Shown here: positions 2,471 to 57,112 of the stretch, one piece after another
Position numbering within the stretch: position 1 is the stretch's first letter
Layout: each line of letters starts with the position of its first letter
NCBI RefSeq assembly: GCF_029887875.1
Contig: NZ_JARXRM010000035.1
Span: 1 to 64,000, forward strand
Direction: 5' to 3'
Source: Luteimonas endophytica
GTDB lineage: Bacteria > Pseudomonadota > Gammaproteobacteria > Xanthomonadales > Xanthomonadaceae
Length of the DNA stretch: 64,000 nucleotides
Translations under genes and position numbers: made by a program
The notes under the pieces: generated by a model
What the model was told of the DNA's origin: nothing
Databases searched by the model: none
The model's input: only the letters and a program-made list of their open reading frames with translations

Positions 2471-3118
2471 TCAAGACCGCAATAGCTGGTGCAGCAGCTT
2501 GCGGTGCGTTTCTTTCATCCGGTCCACGTCTTCGGCGGCGGCCTCGCCGAAGACCAGTCTTGCGACCGCCGCGTACACGACCGGGGTCATGGCGAAATGG
2601 AAGTGATCGGTGAGCGGACCGCGCTTCATCCGGCCCGCCGCCACCTGTTCGTCGATGGCGGCCTGCCGATTGGCCCGGCCGCTAAGATTGGCTTCCTGCC
2701 ATTTGGCCAGGATGCCCGGAACGCGGTGCCCTTCCGCGATCGTCATCCGCAGGACGGCCAGCGCCTCGGGCGTCAACGATGCGTAGCTCGCATCGATCAG
2801 GTTGTCGATGAATGCCGGGACATCCTGCGCGGTCTCCAGCCGGGACCAGTTTCCCTGCGCTTTTCCCACCGAGGATAGCGACTCGAGCAAGGTCTCGAAG
2901 ATCTCGTTCTTGCTGGAGAAATGAACGTAAACGTTGCCCTTCGAGATCCCAACACGCTCCGCGATCATGGCAATGCTGGTGGCGGCAAAGCCCTGCCTGC
3001 TGAACTCGACCAGCGCCGCTTCAAGTATCTGCTTGCGGCGGACCTCGGGGGACAAGCGGGTTCTTTTCCTCGTCTCGCTCCCGGCTTGCGGCTTCTTCTT
3101 TGCTTTTTTTGCCGTCAT
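2471..3118 (-). CDS. TetR/AcrR family transcriptional repressor
   Basis: This encodes a 215-residue regulator. The start at 3118 is preceded by AGAGG; longer in-frame extensions cross the operator region. After a Lys-rich tail, residues ~30-80 form the TetR helix-turn-helix (RRKQILEAAL, IAERVGISKGNVYVHFSSK). The remainder is the helical ligand-binding and dimerisation domain. It is divergent from the MipA/OmpV gene, and a perfect 20-bp palindrome lies between them, so autoregulation and control of the neighbour are likely. The ligand is unknown. Confidence 0.9.
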   Translation of the reverse strand: MTAKKAKKKPQAGSETRKRTRLSPEVRRKQILEAALVEFSRQGFAATSIAMIAERVGISKGNVYVHFSSKNEIFETLLESLSSVGKAQGNWSRLETAQDVPAFIDNLIDASYASLTPEALAVLRMTIAEGHRVPGILAKWQEANLSGRANRQAAIDEQVAAGRMKRGPLTDHFHFAMTPVVYAAVARLVFGEAAAEDVDRMKETHRKLLHQLLRS

Positions 3119-3324
3119 GGCTGCCTCTTTCGTTCTGGCGGTTACAGGCGGTTTCGGGCCCGGCCCGACGGAACCACGCCGTGCCGGCGTTCCGCTGCCG
3201 AGTGTATCGCCGGCATCGCCGGTGCATGCCGCCGTGCCCCCGGGACCTGATCCCCCGAGCCACGCTCGGTACGGTCGGCTCAGCACCGGTGACCATGAAC
3301 GGCGACTTACCACTGCCAGATCTG

Positions 3325-3344
3325 TAATGACCGTACGGTCATTA
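3325..3344. promoter_or_regulatory. Perfect 20-bp palindromic operator, probable TetR site
   Basis: TAATGACCGTACGGTCATTA is a perfect palindrome between divergent tetR and mipA genes. Read on the minus strand, its edge contains TATAAT (3341-3346), a consensus -10 box pointing to the tetR gene. Binding there would block the tetR promoter. The rest of 3119-3481 shows no gene. Confidence 0.75.
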
Positions 3345-3481
3345 TAGCGATAGGATCGTGCTGTCCGGCGGCTCAGTAGCGCTCTCCCCACTCCGGACAC
3401 AGCAGCCGGCGGCCGCCTGCGTCGGGACAACGACATCAACTTGCCGGTTGGTTCGCGACCGGCCCTACGAGGATCTTGAAG

Positions 3482-4279
3482 ATGCTTCAGAAGGAATTTC
3501 AGCGTCGGTCGCCGAATGCGGTTTTAGCGTGGGTCGGAGCACTTTCCGTCGGCCTGGCGGCTACGCTGCCGGTCCGGGCCCAGGAGGCCGAGGTTCCGGA
3601 GGCGGAAACGTCGCGGTGGGGAATCGGCCTGGGTGCCGCGGTGATCGATCGGCCGTATCGCGACTACGACAACGAAACCAAGGGGCTGCCGATCCTCTAT
3701 TTCGGGAACCGCTGGATCGAGATCAACGCCGGCCGGGTCGATTTCAAGATCAACGACAGCGACGTCCTCGACTTTCGGGTCCGGGCGCGCTACGCGCTGG
3801 ATGGCTACGATCCCGATGACTCCGATTACCTGCAGGGAATGCAGGAACGCGACGACAGCGCTTGGGCCGGTGCGGCGGTTGCCTGGAACACGTCGATTGC
3901 CGAGGTCTCTGCCGAATACTTGGTGGACGTCATGGACAACAGCGAAGGCGCTCGTGGGCGGGTCCAGGCCGAGCGTCGCTTCGGCATGGGCCGCTTCGGG
4001 CTAAGTCCGCGCATCGCCGCGGAATGGGTCGACGACAAGTACGTCAGCTACTACTACGGCGTTCGCCCTGAGGAAGCCACGCTGGACCGCCCCGCCTACG
4101 CCGGCGACGCCACGGTCAATATCGAGGCGGGCCTGCGCCTGGACTACAGTCCCGCGCAACGGCACATGTTCTTTCTGGATGTCGCGGCAACCGAGTTTGG
4201 AGACGAGATCGAGCAAAGCCCGCTGGTCGAACAATCCCGGCAGACCAGAGTCTCAGCCGGCTATCTGTTCCGCTTCTGA
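3482..4279 (+). CDS. MipA/OmpV family outer-membrane protein
   Basis: This encodes 265 residues from ATG 3482, placed 8 bases after GAGGA. A TTG six bases earlier is too close to that site. The signal peptide ends near VRA-QEA. The mature part is typical of MipA/OmpV beta-barrels: an early GIGLGAAVIDRPYRDYD segment, alternating polar and hydrophobic strands, and a C-terminal strand ending YLFRF with the terminal Phe used for barrel insertion. Family members act as porins or as murein-synthase scaffolds. The operator at 3325-3344 suggests TetR control. Confidence 0.88.
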   Translation: MLQKEFQRRSPNAVLAWVGALSVGLAATLPVRAQEAEVPEAETSRWGIGLGAAVIDRPYRDYDNETKGLPILYFGNRWIEINAGRVDFKINDSDVLDFRVRARYALDGYDPDDSDYLQGMQERDDSAWAGAAVAWNTSIAEVSAEYLVDVMDNSEGARGRVQAERRFGMGRFGLSPRIAAEWVDDKYVSYYYGVRPEEATLDRPAYAGDATVNIEAGLRLDYSPAQRHMFFLDVAATEFGDEIEQSPLVEQSRQTRVSAGYLFRF

Positions 4280-51828: not shown

Positions 51829-52422
51829 CTATCGCTGGTCCAGCTCGTAGTGGATCAGGCTCACGCATTGCGACGCGAACAGCATCGTGGATCCCAGCGC
51901 GATCCTTTTCGCGCCCAGGCGCTCGAGGCTGTGGAAGGTCTTCTTCGGCATCGGGATGTGGTCGGTGAGCAGGAAGCACGGGTTGCCGGCGAACGCCTGC
52001 TCGCGGATCGCTGCGCCTTTACGGTCCATGACGAACAACTGGTGATCCTCGGCCAGCGCCTGCACCAGCCGCTCGAAGCTGGTGGTGCGCACCGCCACGC
52101 CCGGTTCCACCGGCCGGGTTTCGTCCTTGCCCATGCCCCTGGACGCATCCAGCGCGTTGGCGATCCTGCCCAGCAGCGCCCTTTCGTCGAAGCCGCCGAT
52201 GCCCTGCATGGCGTTGGCGTCGAAGCTGATGGTGCGGGAAAAGTCCCGGGTGCTTTCCAGCACCAGGTGGACGGCGACGTCCGGGCGATGCGACTGGGCC
52301 ACGAAAATCGCGTTCATCAGGGCGTGCGCGAGGATCTCGGGATGCGCCTGCTTGCCCACCGACGCCAGCAGGGCCTGGCTGTCGGTGGGGGCGGCGCGCG
52401 CTCTGAGGACGAAGGTTCGCAT
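51829..52422 (-). CDS. TrmY-like SPOUT-fold RNA methyltransferase (DUF358)
   Basis: This encodes 197 residues. MRTFVLRARAAPTDSQALL at the N-terminus, RPDVAVHLVLESTRDFSRTISFDAN, and FLLTDHIPMPKKTFHSLERLGAKRIALG (the knotted SAM-binding region) match the TrmY family, which methylates pseudouridine 54 in archaeal tRNA. Members occur sporadically in bacteria, where the role is uncertain. It follows the large A-T-AOS gene by 94 bases on the same strand. Confidence 0.85.
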   Translation of the reverse strand: MRTFVLRARAAPTDSQALLASVGKQAHPEILAHALMNAIFVAQSHRPDVAVHLVLESTRDFSRTISFDANAMQGIGGFDERALLGRIANALDASRGMGKDETRPVEPGVAVRTTSFERLVQALAEDHQLFVMDRKGAAIREQAFAGNPCFLLTDHIPMPKKTFHSLERLGAKRIALGSTMLFASQCVSLIHYELDQR

Positions 52423-52516: not shown

Positions 52517-55500
52517 CTAGCGAGGGTCCGCGTGCCCGCCGTGCCGTTCGGCCAGGCGCCCGATGAGCCAGACGAACGGTTCGACCTGGCCACTCAGCAC
52601 GCAGCCGCCCTGGATGACGCTTTCGAGCAGGCCCTGGGCGTCGGACGCACACAGCGCGGAGATCGCGCGGTCGTCGGCGAGCAGCAGCGAGCAGGCCGGC
52701 GTGCGGGGGTTGGCCTGGGCCGGTGCGACGTTCCGGCCATCGATCCGCATCGTGACCGGGGCTTCGCCGTCAGGGAGCCCGATCGAGACCGCCAGGCTCG
52801 GCAACGGGCCGGCCAACGATGCCGGTGCGGCCCGGAGGGAATCGCCGAAGGCCCCGGCCCAGGCCTCGAGGCCGGCGCGCCGCGGGTGGGGGCCGGGGGT
52901 GGCAGCCGCACCCATTCCCGTGGGTCCGTCCTGGGCCCCGGGGCCGTCGGCGGGCCCATCCGGGCGGTTCGCCTGCGACCCGCTGGCGCCGGCCGCGCGA
53001 CCGAGCCGGGCCCGTCGCGACGGGCCGGCTTCCCGCTCCACTTCGATCTCCACTTCGCTCAGCGCCTGGAGCGTTCTGTCGACGTCGTCGCGCGTGTGCG
53101 AGGCCGAGCAGATGAACCGCAGGCGGCCGCGCCCGCGCTCGACGATCGGATACGTCACGGGCGTGGTGTGGATGCCGCGCGCATGCAGGCCGCGCGCGAT
53201 CGCATACAGCGTGTCGCTGTCGGAGAAATGCGGGGTGACGATGGGGCCATCGCCGGTGCCCAGGTCGTAACCGGCTTCCGAGAAGCGCTGCCGCATGTAG
53301 CCGGTGGTGTCCCAGAGCCGCTCCCGGAGCGCCTCGTCCGTGCGCAGCCGGCGCAGGGCGGCGAGCGCGGCGGCGATGTCGGCAGGCGTGATGGTGGCCT
53401 GGAACACATAGGCCCTGGCGGAGGTCTTGAGCAGGGCGACGTGCTCCTCGCTGGCGGCGATCGCGCCCCCCAGGCTGCCGAGCGCCTTGCTGAGGGTGGT
53501 CATGATGAAATCGACCTGCTCGGTGACGCCCTGGGCCGCGCAGATGCCGGCGCCGCGGGGGCCGTAGAAGCCGAACGAGTGCGCCTCGTCCACCAGCACG
53601 AGCGCGCCGTGGCGTTTGGCCACCTGTACGATCTCGCGCACCGGCGCGGTTCCTTCGCCCATGCTGTAGACGCCTTCGAGCACCACCAGGGTCGTCCGGT
53701 AGGGCGAGGCTTCCGCCTCCAGCACCGCTTGCAGGTCGGCCGCGTCGTTGTGCTTGAAGGTCCTGATCGTCGCGCCGCTCAGGCGGGCCCCGTCGACGAT
53801 GGAGGCGTGGCAGAGCTGATCCATCACCACCGCGTCCTTGTCGCCCAGCAGGCCGGCGATCACGCCCAGGTTGGCGGTGAATCCCGTGGAGAACAGGCAA
53901 CCGGCCGGCTTGCCCACCAGTTCGGCGAATTCCTTCTCGAAGTCCAGGTGCAGATCGGTCATGCCGGATGCGGTCGGCGAGGTGCCCATGCCGGTGCCGA
54001 AACGCTCCAGCGCGGACCGGGCCTGGGCGATGACGTCGCCGTCGCGGTTCAGGCCCAGGTACAGGTTGGTGCTCCAGATGATGGCCTCTTGCGCTTCCCC
54101 GGTATGCACGTCGGCGACCGTGCCCCGGTGCCCGCTGCCGGTGCGGACCAGCTTGCTGTACGGCTCGTGTCCCGAGCGTGCCAGCAGGCCCTTGAGTTCG
54201 CGGATGAGCATGCCCTTGTCGGTCGCGGACCACGCCGGCGCCCGGGCCGCCAGGAACGGCGGATGGCCGGACTGGAGCTGCGCCTGGAAGCGGCCCAGCG
54301 GATCCGCGGCGCCGGCGCTCGCAGGCGCGCGCGAGCGGTCCGTGGGGCCGCTTCCCAGGACCTCGAACAGATGCTCGGCCACGGCGGCGGGGGTGGGGTG
54401 CTCGACCAGCGTCGATGCGGGCAGCTTCAGGCCCAGCACCGTGGAAAGCCGATGGCTCAGCTCCACCGAGTCCAGCGAGTCGAGGCCGAGCGCTTCCAGT
54501 GCCTGCCGCGGCGGAACCCGTTCAGGATCGCCAAGGCGAAGGAAGCGGGCGATTTCGCGCCGGACGACCGACAGCAGGGCGGCATGCCGCTCGTCCTTCG
54601 GCAGGCCGGCCAGGCGGTGCGCCAGGCCCACGGCATCGCCGGCGGCCACCGGGTCGGCATGCGCGCCGGGCGGACCGGACGCATCGGGGCCGCACCCCGG
54701 CTCCGGCCGCGGGAGCCGCTTGCGGTCGAGCTTGCCGTTGGGCAGGCGGGGCAGCTCGGCGAGCCGCATCACCAGCTGCGGGACCATGTACTTCGGCAGC
54801 CGCTCCGCCAGGTAGGCGCGCGACGCCTCGTTCGTCGCCGCCGCGTCGCGGCCGACCACGTACCCGACGAGCAGGGGCTTGCCGTCTGCGTCGACGAGCG
54901 CCGCCGCTGCGCCGTCCACGCCCGGCATCGACTCCAGCGCCGACTCGATCTCCTCCAGCTCGACCCGGAAGCCGCGGAGCTTCACCTGCTGGTCGATCCG
55001 TCCCAGGAACTCGATCTCGCCCGCTTCGGTCCACCGGCATCGATCTCCGGTCCGGTACAGCCGTTCGCCCGCAGCCGGTCCGTTAGGCGCGCTGTCTTGC
55101 GGTGGGCTGGTCGGCCCGCTTGCCGGTCCGCGAGCATCCGCCGCGACGAACCGTTCCTTCGTGCGTGCCTCATCGTGGAGGTAGCCCCGCGCAAGCTGGT
55201 CTCCGCCAAGATGCAGCTCGCCCGCGACGCCCGCCGCTACCGGTTGCATGGCCTCGTCCAGGATGTACGCACGCGCACGTCCCACCGGCTTGCCGATCGT
55301 GATAGTCCGCACCCCTGCGGGCACCTCGGTGGCCGTGCAGTAGACCGTGTTCTCGGTCGGCCCGTACACGTTGAGCACGCGCGGCCGCTGCGGCAGGGCG
55401 TGCAGTTGCTCCACCAGCGGGCGTTTCAGCACGTCGCCCCCGAGTACGACGCAGCGCACGCCTTCCGGCAGCCCGCCGGCCGCCAGCAGCGCCTGCATCG

Positions 55501-56344
55501 ACGACGGCACCATGATGGTGGTGCGTACGCGGTCCGCCGCCGGCAGTTCCGGCAGCGCCAATGCGTGCGCCGCCAGCACCACGGTGCCGCCGAGCGACAA
55601 GGTGCCGAGGATCTCCATCACCGAGGTGTCGAAGCAGATGGAGGCGGCGGCGAGCACGCCGGCGAGTTCCTCGTCGCCCAGCAGCTCGCGCATCGACCGG
55701 GTCATCGCGACGACGCTTCGATGCTCGACGGCCACGCCTTTCGGGCGTCCGGTCGAGCCGGACGTGTAGATGACATAGGCCAGGTCGCCCGCCGAAGGCC
55801 GGGCGGCCGCGTCCGGCAAGCGCTCTCCCACTGCGTCGAGCCGTACCAGCTCGGCCGCCCCGGCGCAGAGCTCGGCGGCCTTCGCGCCATCGACGACGAC
55901 GGCCGCGGCCCGGGCGTGCTCCAGCATGTAGCGCACCCGTTCCCGCGGATACTCCGGATCCAGCGGCACGTACGCACACCCCGCGCGCAGGACGCCGAGC
56001 AGCGTCGCCGCCAGTTCCCACGAGCGCCCCAGGCAGACGCCGACCAGCGCCCCGGGCCGCACGCCCCGCGCGGCGAGTTCGCCCGCGATCGCGTTCGCCC
56101 GCGCGGTCAGGCGCGTGTAGTCGATCTGCGCAGGTCCATCGACGATGGCGGTGCGTTGCGGATACGCCTGCGCCCGTTGCTCGACGAGTTCCCAGATCGT
56201 GTCCGTGCGGTCGTACGCCTGCGCGCCGGGGTTCCCCTCGGCGGGCACCCGATGCGCCGCGTTCCGGCCACGCGGGGAGGTCTCGTCGGCGGGTGCGTCA
56301 CGTTTCGCGTCCTCCGCCATCCCATGTGTTCCAGGCCCCTGCAT
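52517..56344 (-). CDS. Adenylation-carrier-oxoamine synthase fusion with SCP2-like C-terminus
   Basis: This encodes 1275 residues from the start at 56344, with AAGGAG upstream. Residues ~45-545 are an NRPS adenylation domain (A3 [12 protein letters not shown]5 NVYGPTE, A7 YRTGDR, A8 [14 protein letters not shown]10 [11 protein letters not shown]). Residues ~585-665 are a carrier domain with phosphopantetheine Ser623 in LGLDSL. Residues ~740-1100 are a PLP alpha-oxoamine synthase with Lys953 in [12 protein letters not shown]. After a Gly/Pro linker, ~1155-1270 resembles an SCP2/sterol-carrier fold. Predicted chemistry: activate an amino or fatty acid, hold it as thioester, then condense it decarboxylatively with an amino acid to an alpha-amino ketone. 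Confidence 0.92.
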
Positions 56345-56449
56345 CGAACCACTCCTTGCGGAAAAACTCGGCCTGCAGTCTATGGGCCTGCGCCGCCCAA
56401 AGGGCATGGGGTGTGGAGCGGAATGTGACGGGGTCGGCAAGACCCGCTC

Positions 56450-57112
56450 TCAGGCCCGCCCATCGGTCGTGCCGCCATCGGCGAACACCGCCCGTTGCGC
56501 GGCGAACGCGCGCCGGTAGGCGGGCCGCGCTTCGCCGCGGGCGACGTAGGCGACCAGGTTGGGGAAGCCTTCCAGCACGCCGATGCCTTCGATGCGGCGG
56601 AGCACCATCACCATCATCAGGTCGCCGGCACTGAACGCACCGTCGAGCCAGTCGGCCTCGCCGAGGCGCGCGGACAGCTGAGCCAGCCGCGCGCGGATCC
56701 GCGCCTCGAGCAGGGGCAGCCGCTGCGCGTGCCAGGGCTGGTCGCCCTCCACGTACGGCGCCTGCTCGCGCTCGACGATCGGCGGTTCCACCGTGTTGAG
56801 CGCAGCGAACAGCCAGCCGATCGCGCGCGCGCGGGCGCTGGCATCCTCCGGCAGCAGGCCCTCATGGCGCTCGGCGAGGTGCAGCACGATCGCACCGGAC
56901 TCGAACAGGGCGAGGTCCCCGGCTTCGTAGGTGGGGATCTGCCCGAAAGGGTGCCGCGCCAGATGCGCGGGCCGCTTCAGCCCGTCGAACGACACCGGAC
57001 GCACGTCGTAGGGCTGGCCGACTTCCTCGAGCGCCCAGCGCACGCGCATGTCGCGCGCCAGGCCTCGGCCGCCGTCGGGCGAGCGTTCGAACACGGTGAT
57101 GGTGGGAGTCAT
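56450..57112 (-). CDS. Glutathione S-transferase family protein
   Basis: This encodes 220 residues; GAAGGAG before the start at 57112. The N-domain has VRWALEEVGQPYDVRPVSFDGLKRPAHLARHPFGQIPTYE then LFESGAIVLHLAERH, the glutathione-binding Glu-Ser. The C-domain ends FSAGDLMMVMVLRRIEGIGV. Cytosolic detoxification enzyme. It lies 105 bases upstream of, and on the same strand as, the A-T-AOS gene, so it may be part of that unit. Confidence 0.92.
   Translation of the reverse strand: MTPTITVFERSPDGGRGLARDMRVRWALEEVGQPYDVRPVSFDGLKRPAHLARHPFGQIPTYEAGDLALFESGAIVLHLAERHEGLLPEDASARARAIGWLFAALNTVEPPIVEREQAPYVEGDQPWHAQRLPLLEARIRARLAQLSARLGEADWLDGAFSAGDLMMVMVLRRIEGIGVLEGFPNLVAYVARGEARPAYRRAFAAQRAVFADGGTTDGRA

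Follow-up and report, generated by a model that had tools for sequence, protein, structure and literature searches.

A putative one-gene amino-ketone synthase with a C-terminal SCP2-like domain in Luteimonas endophytica

Introduction

Carrier-alpha-oxoamine synthase (AOS) proteins of the SxtA and PigH type, in which the AOS immediately follows the carrier loaded with its acyl substrate, are encoded in gene clusters and have no adenylation (A) domain in their chain. Chains that include one were tabulated in a 2013 survey, Table 2 of which lists A-CP-PLP2 proteins of Microscilla marina (A1ZVW4) and Blastopirellula marina (A3ZWL3) with the product unassigned, as well as CP-PLP2 and CP-CP-PLP2 rows (PMC3870968). 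A1ZVW4 is marked there as taking a generic amino acid, with no consensus prediction. In Corynebacterium amycolatum, a single protein, BioWF, carries out both the activation of an acid and its condensation with Ala, Ser or Gly (PMC9544090). Pyrazines or pyrazinones arise from A-T-R proteins such as ATRed (PMC7586950) and AsaC (PMC10512218).

Here we describe a gene in which an A domain, a carrier (T) and an AOS are followed by an SCP2-like domain. We think it rather probable that it encodes a one-gene amino-ketone synthase that joins two amino acids by a C–C bond and carries an SCP2 module at its end.

Results

Gene and Domain Organisation

The window is a 64,000 nt stretch of Luteimonas endophytica DNA (contig NZ_JARXRM010000035.1), of which about 45–64 kb was examined. 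The gene and its surroundings comprise the following features:

56450..57112, minus strand: glutathione S-transferase (GST) gene, upstream neighbour, 105 bp away (PF02798)
56352..56357, minus strand: ribosome-binding-site-like AAGGAG, 7 nt upstream of the ATG (read from the sequence)
52517..56344, minus strand: whole gene, ATG start, for the A-T-AOS-SCP2 protein P0001 (1275 aa)
54695..56206, minus strand: A domain, residues 47-550 (PF00501, E 2.6e-77; PF13193; TIGR01733)
54368..54568, minus strand: carrier (thiolation, T) domain, residues 593-659 (PF00550, 51.3 bits, cut-off 20.8)
54476-54478, minus strand: carrier Ser623, Ser in 24/24 aligned proteins
53045..54124, minus strand: AOS domain, residues 741-1100 (PF00155)
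53486-53488, minus strand: PLP-binding Lys953 of the AOS, kept in 24/24
52874..53032, minus strand: Ala/Gly/Pro-rich variable linker, residues 1105-1157, 53 aa (24-protein alignment)
52520..52873, minus strand: C-terminal SCP2-like domain, residues 1158-1275 (AlphaFold2 model, Foldseek, VIA-align, conservation)
51829..52422, minus strand: TrmY (tRNA pseudouridine-54 methyltransferase) gene, downstream neighbour (NF002560, 208.2 bits, cut-off 183)

A promoter and terminator scan returned zero sites. The four-domain protein claimed in a preliminary description of this DNA was confirmed as a real observation: Pfam and NCBIfam profiles, and for the SCP2-like part the fold of an AlphaFold2 model, bore out the domain order, and Ser623 and Lys953 lie at the positions given there. 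The interpretation attached to the gene was partly supported.

Distribution and Conservation of the Family

A genome survey found the same domain order in 24 full-length proteins, including the window protein, from Luteimonas/Lysobacter, Pseudoalteromonas, Bacteroidota and Acidobacteriota; these proteins were aligned. The gene is rare and patchy, scattered across bacteria from three or more phyla, and the family tree disagrees with taxonomy. The assembly is conserved as a whole. Identity to the window protein was 70–91% for the AOS, the most conserved of the four domains, 45–86% for the A domain, 25–85% for T and 26–73% for SCP2. When a profile of the C-terminal domain was searched, with at most 11–15 candidates scored per genome (weak copies may escape), the domain lay within an ORF of 1166–1409 aa in 17 of 17 distinct genomes with a match, and all 17 proteins are included in the alignment.

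A scan with six short peptide patterns, requiring one pattern and missing relatives without any, yielded 29 loci. Seventeen of these (L019-L035) match the A or AOS part only and were left out as non-members. Repeats were counted once (L036=L010, L037=L009, L038=L055, L053=L010, L054=L009, L059=L011, L060=L008, L095=L007), and short match loci such as L041-L050 were likewise not counted twice. Plasmid mobility of the gene was rejected: a search with the AOS-SCP2 half (E 1e-60) found no member and matched one of 72,556 plasmid records, a lone Rhizobium AOS with 44% identity.

Adenylation Domain and Specificity Code

The A domain passed the amino-acid-adenylation cut-off (TIGR01733, 398.6 vs 317.4 bits). 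Core motifs A3, A5, A6, A7, A8 and A10, hallmarks of NRPS A domains, were recognisable in the 20 proteins compared. Equivalents of Asp235 and Lys517, whose roles are treated in PMC11253843, are present in 24/24 aligned proteins. The pocket residues of the window protein (239, 240, 243, 278, 300, 302, 326, 334, 335 and 538) read DTMMVGVVYK. The earlier claim that this pocket matches no known code held in part: the strings DTMMVG and DPMMVG were not found in the open-licence PMC literature, but DGFFLGVVYK, the Ile code of bacitracin (PMC2866473, Table 2), shares six of the ten positions with the window code. Met occupies the 239 position of the code in 22/24 proteins and is absent there from every known code compared. 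One Leu code is DAFMLGMVFK, a string that was not found in the open-licence PMC literature. Judged by its residues, the window code appears similar, and no closer than that, to aliphatic codes. Codes vary between members, with DPSVIGAVFK in L017 and L106 and DPMAFGVVFK in L018, so members may differ in substrate.

Carrier and AOS Domains

Ser623, Lys953, His846, Asp919, His922 and Arg1076 are kept in 24/24 proteins; the alignment thus shows neither an inactive carrier Ser nor a missing PLP residue. The AOS has the fold type I PLP residues (Lys, Asp and two His) and the Arg of serine palmitoyltransferase (SPT), again in 24/24; roles of SPT His137, His212 and Arg366 and of the Asp and Lys are given in PMC3870968. 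Its nearest solved relative by sequence is the SPT 3a2b. The domain scored below the NCBIfam SPT equivalog cut-offs (318.2/500, 302.6/640 and 251.1/670 bits), below that of 8-amino-7-oxononanoate synthase (BioF, TIGR00858, 327 vs 426.45 bits) and below those of glycine C-acetyltransferase (KBL; NF005394, 321.6/460 bits; TIGR01822, 273.5/493 bits). Where the SPT loop (S-R) has its Arg, 24/24 proteins have Pro or Ala, which could signal an unusual acyl partner. The phosphopantetheinyl transferase family PF01648 was present in 8/8 host genomes tried; it was also positive in 10/14 well-known control genomes, so its presence in the hosts is permissive only.

The proximity of the AOS to SPT among solved structures raises the alternative of a lipid-type synthase, in which the A domain would activate a fatty or other non-amino acid, the AOS would form a sphingoid-like amino ketone lipid and the SCP2 domain would carry it. 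Lipid binding is a general property of SCP2 folds. A sphingolipid route combining a PKS and an AOS is also known (PMC12134224). We nevertheless regard this alternative as unlikely, given an A domain above the amino-acid-adenylation cut-off with the Asp235 equivalent in every member, and an AOS short of every SPT cut-off.

C-Terminal SCP2-like Domain

The AlphaFold2 model of the C-terminal domain matched SCP2 and UbiJ-SCP2 folds in Foldseek and VIA-align, placing the domain, on the predicted model, in the SCP2 fold that had been claimed for it. Its fold is like that of UbiJ and other SCP2 proteins (6h6p, 6z1x, 1ikt); unlike them, it gives no sequence-profile match, and identity to them is 10–11% over aligned residues. 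The Pfam SCP2 profile matched none of the 13 members searched at E up to 10, and neither Pfam nor the PDB yielded a useful sequence match. Four Pfam families matching one or two of the 13 members each, the best being PF21930 (0.0006, in a single member), were set aside as not common to them.

W1162, G1252, E1255, F1257, W1259 and R1263 occur in 24/24 proteins, and the last helix reads E-x-F-x-W-x3-R in all of them. With a mean identity of 46% (24 proteins), the domain ranks below the other three, and it is under modest constraint (dN/dS, five pairs), which speaks little for a precise role. Residues 1101-1157 had a dN/dS of 0.56–0.88 (five pairs), and the linker ranges from 17 to 53 aa across the 24 proteins, with 53 aa in the window protein.

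The conserved motif of the last helix would suit a domain that is catalytic or regulatory instead of lipid-binding, closing the AOS active site for example, and among the VIA-align matches of SCP2-like regions are C-terminal portions of alkylsulfatases and of Eis-type acetyltransferases. We give this a low probability, as the variable linker suits a mobile tether and the constraint on the domain is modest.

Genomic Neighbourhood

No neighbour of the gene recurs widely. None of the ten window neighbours was matched in any of eight loci outside the window's family (E 1e-8), and recurring neighbours were limited to Luteimonas/Lysobacter or to the L104-L105 pair, one clustering covering clusters of at least three loci only. 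The suggestion that GST and TrmY belong to the unit was not supported: a GST ortholog (80–87% identity) lies near the gene in 3/19 other loci and TrmY in 2/19, and 15 of 19 TrmY-positive genomes also searched for the synthase had no full-length copy. At L007, GST and TrmY adjoin each other, and the synthase gene lies about 2 kb beyond them. Seven congeneric loci (L088-L094) were chosen from 27 clear TrmY matches, a 28th being weak (E 4.9e-4), and checked for the synthase within the stretch around TrmY only, which for L088 stops at the contig end. In that stretch all seven were free of the synthase and had no close GST ortholog beside TrmY; L093 has a 43% GST paralog there. A link of the synthase to GST or TrmY in this lineage is possible, because TrmY was found in 4/4 synthase-bearing genomes of the genus searched and the GST gene is close and co-oriented.

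Some loci have neighbours of other kinds. L016 has a large NRPS-type ORF on the strand of the gene, about 0.5 kb downstream of it, and L013 has one on the opposite strand at a distance of about 1.5 kb, so the protein could act before or after an assembly line in some hosts; L106 has an ORF, reductase-like by eye, about 0.1 kb downstream. These ORFs, together with the GST orthologs, are what a larger pathway would predict, the ketone being an intermediate for an NRPS, a ketoreductase, a GST or other enzymes encoded nearby or elsewhere. Neighbours vary by locus, however, and recur only among the close relatives named above, and we consider such a pathway quite improbable. A rare, patchy family, a tree in conflict with taxonomy and the lack of neighbours recurring beyond close relatives make it probable that the gene acts as a unit by itself. 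That the gene is decayed or unused, judged for the family as a whole, is scarcely credible against an open frame and all tested active residues in 24/24 proteins and a dN/dS of 0.12–0.24 in the A and AOS domains (five pairs).

Discussion

For the one-gene amino-ketone synthase, we infer every chemical step, both substrates and the role of the SCP2-like domain as follows. The A domain would use ATP to activate a hydrophobic alpha-amino acid, most likely Leu/Ile/Val-like, which would pass to the phosphopantetheine on Ser623. A second amino acid, most likely Ser, Ala or Gly, would be held by the AOS as a PLP aldimine on Lys953. The carbanion from this aldimine would attack the aminoacyl thioester with loss of CO2, forming the C–C bond and releasing the product with need of neither a condensation nor a thioesterase domain. 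An alpha-amino ketone would result; should the carrier indeed hold an amino acid, it would probably be an alpha,alpha'-diamino ketone, open to reduction or to dimerisation to a pyrazine. On its variable tether, the SCP2-like domain probably binds this ketone, which would be hydrophobic and reactive, or brings in a greasy partner. More tentatively, and with somewhat less than even confidence, we suggest a horizontally spread one-gene system in which two free amino acids are C–C-joined without a condensation domain and a diamino ketone is released with its own SCP2 chaperone.

The locus had been put forward as a possibly undescribed system. Among the matches listed in the open-licence PMC literature, outside which most subscription journals lie, we found no A-T-AOS-SCP2 protein or report of its single-gene spread, no product of any A-T-AOS protein (one may be known elsewhere) and no enzyme class that C–C-joins two free amino acids with its own SCP2; no paper there combines "oxoamine synthase" with "sterol carrier". 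Within that literature the claim stands for the product and the SCP2 extension, but the bare A-T-AOS order already appears in the 2013 table (PMC3870968).

If the proposal is right, a single 3.8-kb gene would be a complete biosynthetic pathway that is easy to express and test, its release step would be of a C–C-bond-forming kind seldom seen in NRPS-like enzymes, and the SCP2 domain attached to such an enzyme would represent a novel means of handling a reactive product.

Among known systems, the minimal A-T-R synthetases ATRed (PMC7586950) and AsaC (PMC10512218) turn an amino acid into a reactive carbonyl compound with one module in one protein, as we propose here; they differ in having a reductase in place of the AOS and in releasing an aldehyde, not an amino ketone. 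TamD likewise has an AOS directly after the carrier that holds its acyl substrate, whereas it has no A domain in its chain and belongs to a 19-gene cluster (PMC4698589). BioWF resembles the proposed enzyme in combining activation and decarboxylative AOS condensation to an amino ketone in one polypeptide; its BioW part, unlike the window protein, makes CoA thioesters of fatty mono- or di-acids, and it is described without a carrier, an NRPS-type A domain or SCP2 (PMC9544090). With the A-CP-PLP2 proteins, the window protein shares the Pfam-level order of A domain, carrier and Aminotran_1_2 in one chain; compared by description only, it differs from them in its C-terminal domain, none being mentioned in the survey's account, and, if the proposal holds, it could supply a product for an architecture tabulated there without one (PMC3870968).

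Gene and domain architecture

The synthase is encoded by a single gene:

56344-52517, minus strand, synthase gene, with AAGGAG 7 bases 5' of the ATG

From N- to C-terminus, its product carried the Pfam domains AMP-binding, AMP-binding_C, PP-binding and Aminotran_1_2, corresponding to adenylation (A), carrier (T) and alpha-oxoamine synthase (AOS) domains, followed by a C-terminal domain with a predicted SCP2-like fold. The amino acid adenylation model TIGR01733 scored above its curated cut-off (398.6 versus 317.4 bits). Among the best 25 of 121 matches, none of the AOS-type curated models attained its own cut-off: BioF reached 327 bits (cut-off 426.45), KBL 321.6 (460), serine palmitoyltransferase (SPT) 318.2 (500) and 5-aminolevulinate synthase 252.7 (338.55). 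Because these cut-offs were not attained, the domain is, by its sequence, an AOS-superfamily member to which curated models assign no named enzyme. The solved structures closest to it in sequence were SPTs (3a2b, E 3.9e-71).

Conservation and selection

A scan seeded with short peptide patterns and covering 84,980 species genomes yielded 29 loci, 12 of them with full-length relatives: five from Luteimonas or Lysobacter (73-79% identity), Sulfidibacter (61%), Acanthopleuribacter (55%), two Fulvivirga, Sinomicrobium and Aquimarina (51-55%), and one Pseudoalteromonas (47%). Whole-genome searches supplied further relatives, and 24 distinct full-length proteins, the window's included, were aligned. 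All 24 kept the carrier Ser623, the PLP-binding Lys953 together with His846, Asp919, His922 and Arg1076 of the AOS, Asp239 and Lys538 of the A domain (Asp235 and Lys517 of GrsA), and W1162, G1252, E1255, F1257, W1259 and R1263 of the SCP2-like domain. Identity to the window's protein was 70-91% for AOS, 45-86% for A, 25-85% for T and 26-73% for SCP2. The SPT residues with roles assigned in the available text of a 2013 survey (His137, Ala211, His212, Ser242 and Arg366; PMC3870968) were applied to the AOS. In a comparison of 20 proteins, Ser preceded the PLP Lys throughout, and the Ala211 equivalent was Ser in one (L056).

Domain-by-domain dN/dS (Nei–Gojobori) between the window and the Luteimonas suaedae locus L010 was 0.235 (A), 0.434 (T), 0.213 (AOS), 0.573 (linker) and 0.567 (SCP2); between L007, from the Luteimonas/Lysobacter group, and L010 it was 0.241, 0.512, 0.118, 0.563 and 0.386, respectively. 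The A and AOS domains are clearly constrained, and T and SCP2 are less constrained than these. In the window–L010 pair, SCP2 was no more constrained than the linker; nevertheless, its predicted fold, together with ten columns that do not vary among 13 sequences, argues that the domain is kept.

Distribution and descent

The full-length gene was found in four of 41 genomes of the window's genus. The C-terminal profile matched 10 of 297 genomes in the window's family, one of 398 in its phylum (the window's own genome), one of 395 in the phylum of locus L013 (the search centre) and two of 297 in that of L012 (the search centre and one other). Within the order of L013 it matched five of 370, including two already known. 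An AOS-SCP2 profile (E 1e-130) matched two of 118 genomes in the Pseudoalteromonas family, the search centre and one other. Since all 17 distinct C-terminal matches lay in ORFs of 1166-1409 aa, the SCP2 variant was not seen outside the four-part protein in the genomes sampled with this profile.

In a tree of 20 synthases, members of the window's family fell into two clades separated by supported branches, which forces two label changes (none of 500 shuffles gave so few). L066, from a genome in the phylum of L012, grouped beside the window's clade, and the two Fulvivirga did not fall together. Details of the tree are unsure because five of 17 inner branches were open, the Pseudoalteromonas branch was long and seven rows, including the window's, deviated from the alignment in letter make-up. 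Tree placement and patchy presence together point to spread of the gene by horizontal transfer. Base composition gave no sign of recent arrival, as GC (0.725) was similar to that of the neighbours (0.67-0.73) and GC3 (0.884) only slightly lower (0.90-0.94). Elsewhere in the window, positions 1-2000 had a GC of 0.558, versus 0.61-0.74 in the other 2-kb steps.

Neighbouring genes

Two genes flank the synthase gene:

56450-57112, GST
51829-52422, TrmY

The preliminary description had suggested a unit that might include both, which was not supported: when ten window neighbours were compared with 19 other loci, none matched in the eight loci outside the window's family, and the full-length synthase was absent from 15 of the 19 TrmY-positive genomes also searched for it. 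GST orthologs lay near the synthase gene in L007, L008 and L010, and TrmY did so in L007 and L010 only (19 other loci); in L007, GST adjoins TrmY, with the synthase ~2 kb from the pair. TrmY was present in all four synthase-bearing genomes of the genus search. A clear TrmY match was obtained in 27 of 52 congeneric genomes (weak or none in the remainder), which is patchy for an enzyme that modifies tRNA. Two TrmY sequences were seen in L. suaedae:

L010 13844-13936, N-terminal TrmY fragment (23-31 residues) directly behind the synthase gene
L010 19433-20044, full TrmY, ~5.6 kb from the synthase gene

The fragment is likely a scar of local rearrangement or duplication. Large NRPS-type ORFs occurred ~0.5 kb downstream in L016, in the orientation of the synthase gene, and ~1.5 kb away on the opposite strand in L013, and L104 and L105 had neighbours in common. 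One further locus contained an ORF that could reduce a ketone:

L106 10484-11212, same strand as the synthase, ~0.1 kb downstream, reductase-like ORF (short-chain dehydrogenase, judged by eye)

What the loci have in common is the one gene.

Predicted chemistry

The well-known biochemistry of each of the three catalytic domains suggests a direct route, in which the A domain would convert an amino acid and ATP to aminoacyl-AMP, the aminoacyl group would be loaded on the carrier (aminoacyl-S-T), and the AOS would condense it decarboxylatively with a PLP-bound second amino acid.

The A pocket followed a mostly hydrophobic pattern in 24 proteins, D-[TPV]-[MS]-[MVAI]-[VILF]-G-[AVLCF]-V-[YF]-K. A Leu code, DAFMLGMVFK, was absent from the open-licence literature searched. 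The pocket had initially been described as matching no known code; this holds insofar as the strings DTMMVG and DPMMVG were absent from the open-licence literature searched, but the window's DTMMVGVVYK is like the bacitracin Ile code DGFFLGVVYK at six of ten positions (PMC2866473, Table 2). With DAFFLGVTFK, a code shared by two Ile- or Val-accepting positions in cyanopeptolins, it has four of ten in common (PMC2533009, Table 1). Code likeness thus suggests an aliphatic-type specificity, a class described as difficult to call from A-domain codes in the available part of PMC11253843.

The Ser-Arg before the acyl site of SPT was replaced by Ser-Pro or Ser-Ala in all 24 proteins. The same position was Val-Arg and Ser-His in two host proteins judged from their motifs to be KBL-like and AONS-like, respectively, and Ser-Ala in a stand-alone AOS:

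L097 5803-7089, stand-alone AOS, Rhizobium rhizoryzae plasmid NZ_CP049247.1 (record 2879-4165)

This AOS had 44% identity to the synthase-family AOS over 352 aa and the same unusual GTSA loop, and an annotated SAM-dependent methyltransferase gene adjoins it. As the loop faces the acyl group in 5-aminolevulinate synthase structures, one may speculate by analogy that small residues at this position could accommodate an aminoacyl unit with an alpha branch.

Comparison with known systems

The 2013 survey listed A-CP-PLP2 proteins from Microscilla marina and Blastopirellula marina, product not given, and modelled the AOS domain of a Synechococcus PCC 7002 AMP-binding protein without a product; its available text mentions no C-terminal domain in the A-CP-PLP2 proteins, whereas the synthase has the SCP2-like domain (PMC3870968). 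As far as the accessible parts of the sources describe them, BioWF fuses activation to AOS, as in the synthase (PMC9544090), TamD fuses carrier to AOS, resembling its T-AOS portion (PMC4698589), SgaAB represents another AOS partnership, with a PKS (PMC12134224), and one-protein A-T-R systems lead to pyrazines or pyrazinones (PMC7586950, PMC10512218). No A-T-AOS-SCP2 protein was among the matches listed in the open-licence literature. Each domain and the three-domain order A-T-AOS are already known; as far as the literature searched extends, neither the addition of the fourth domain nor the spread of one gene over several phyla is known.
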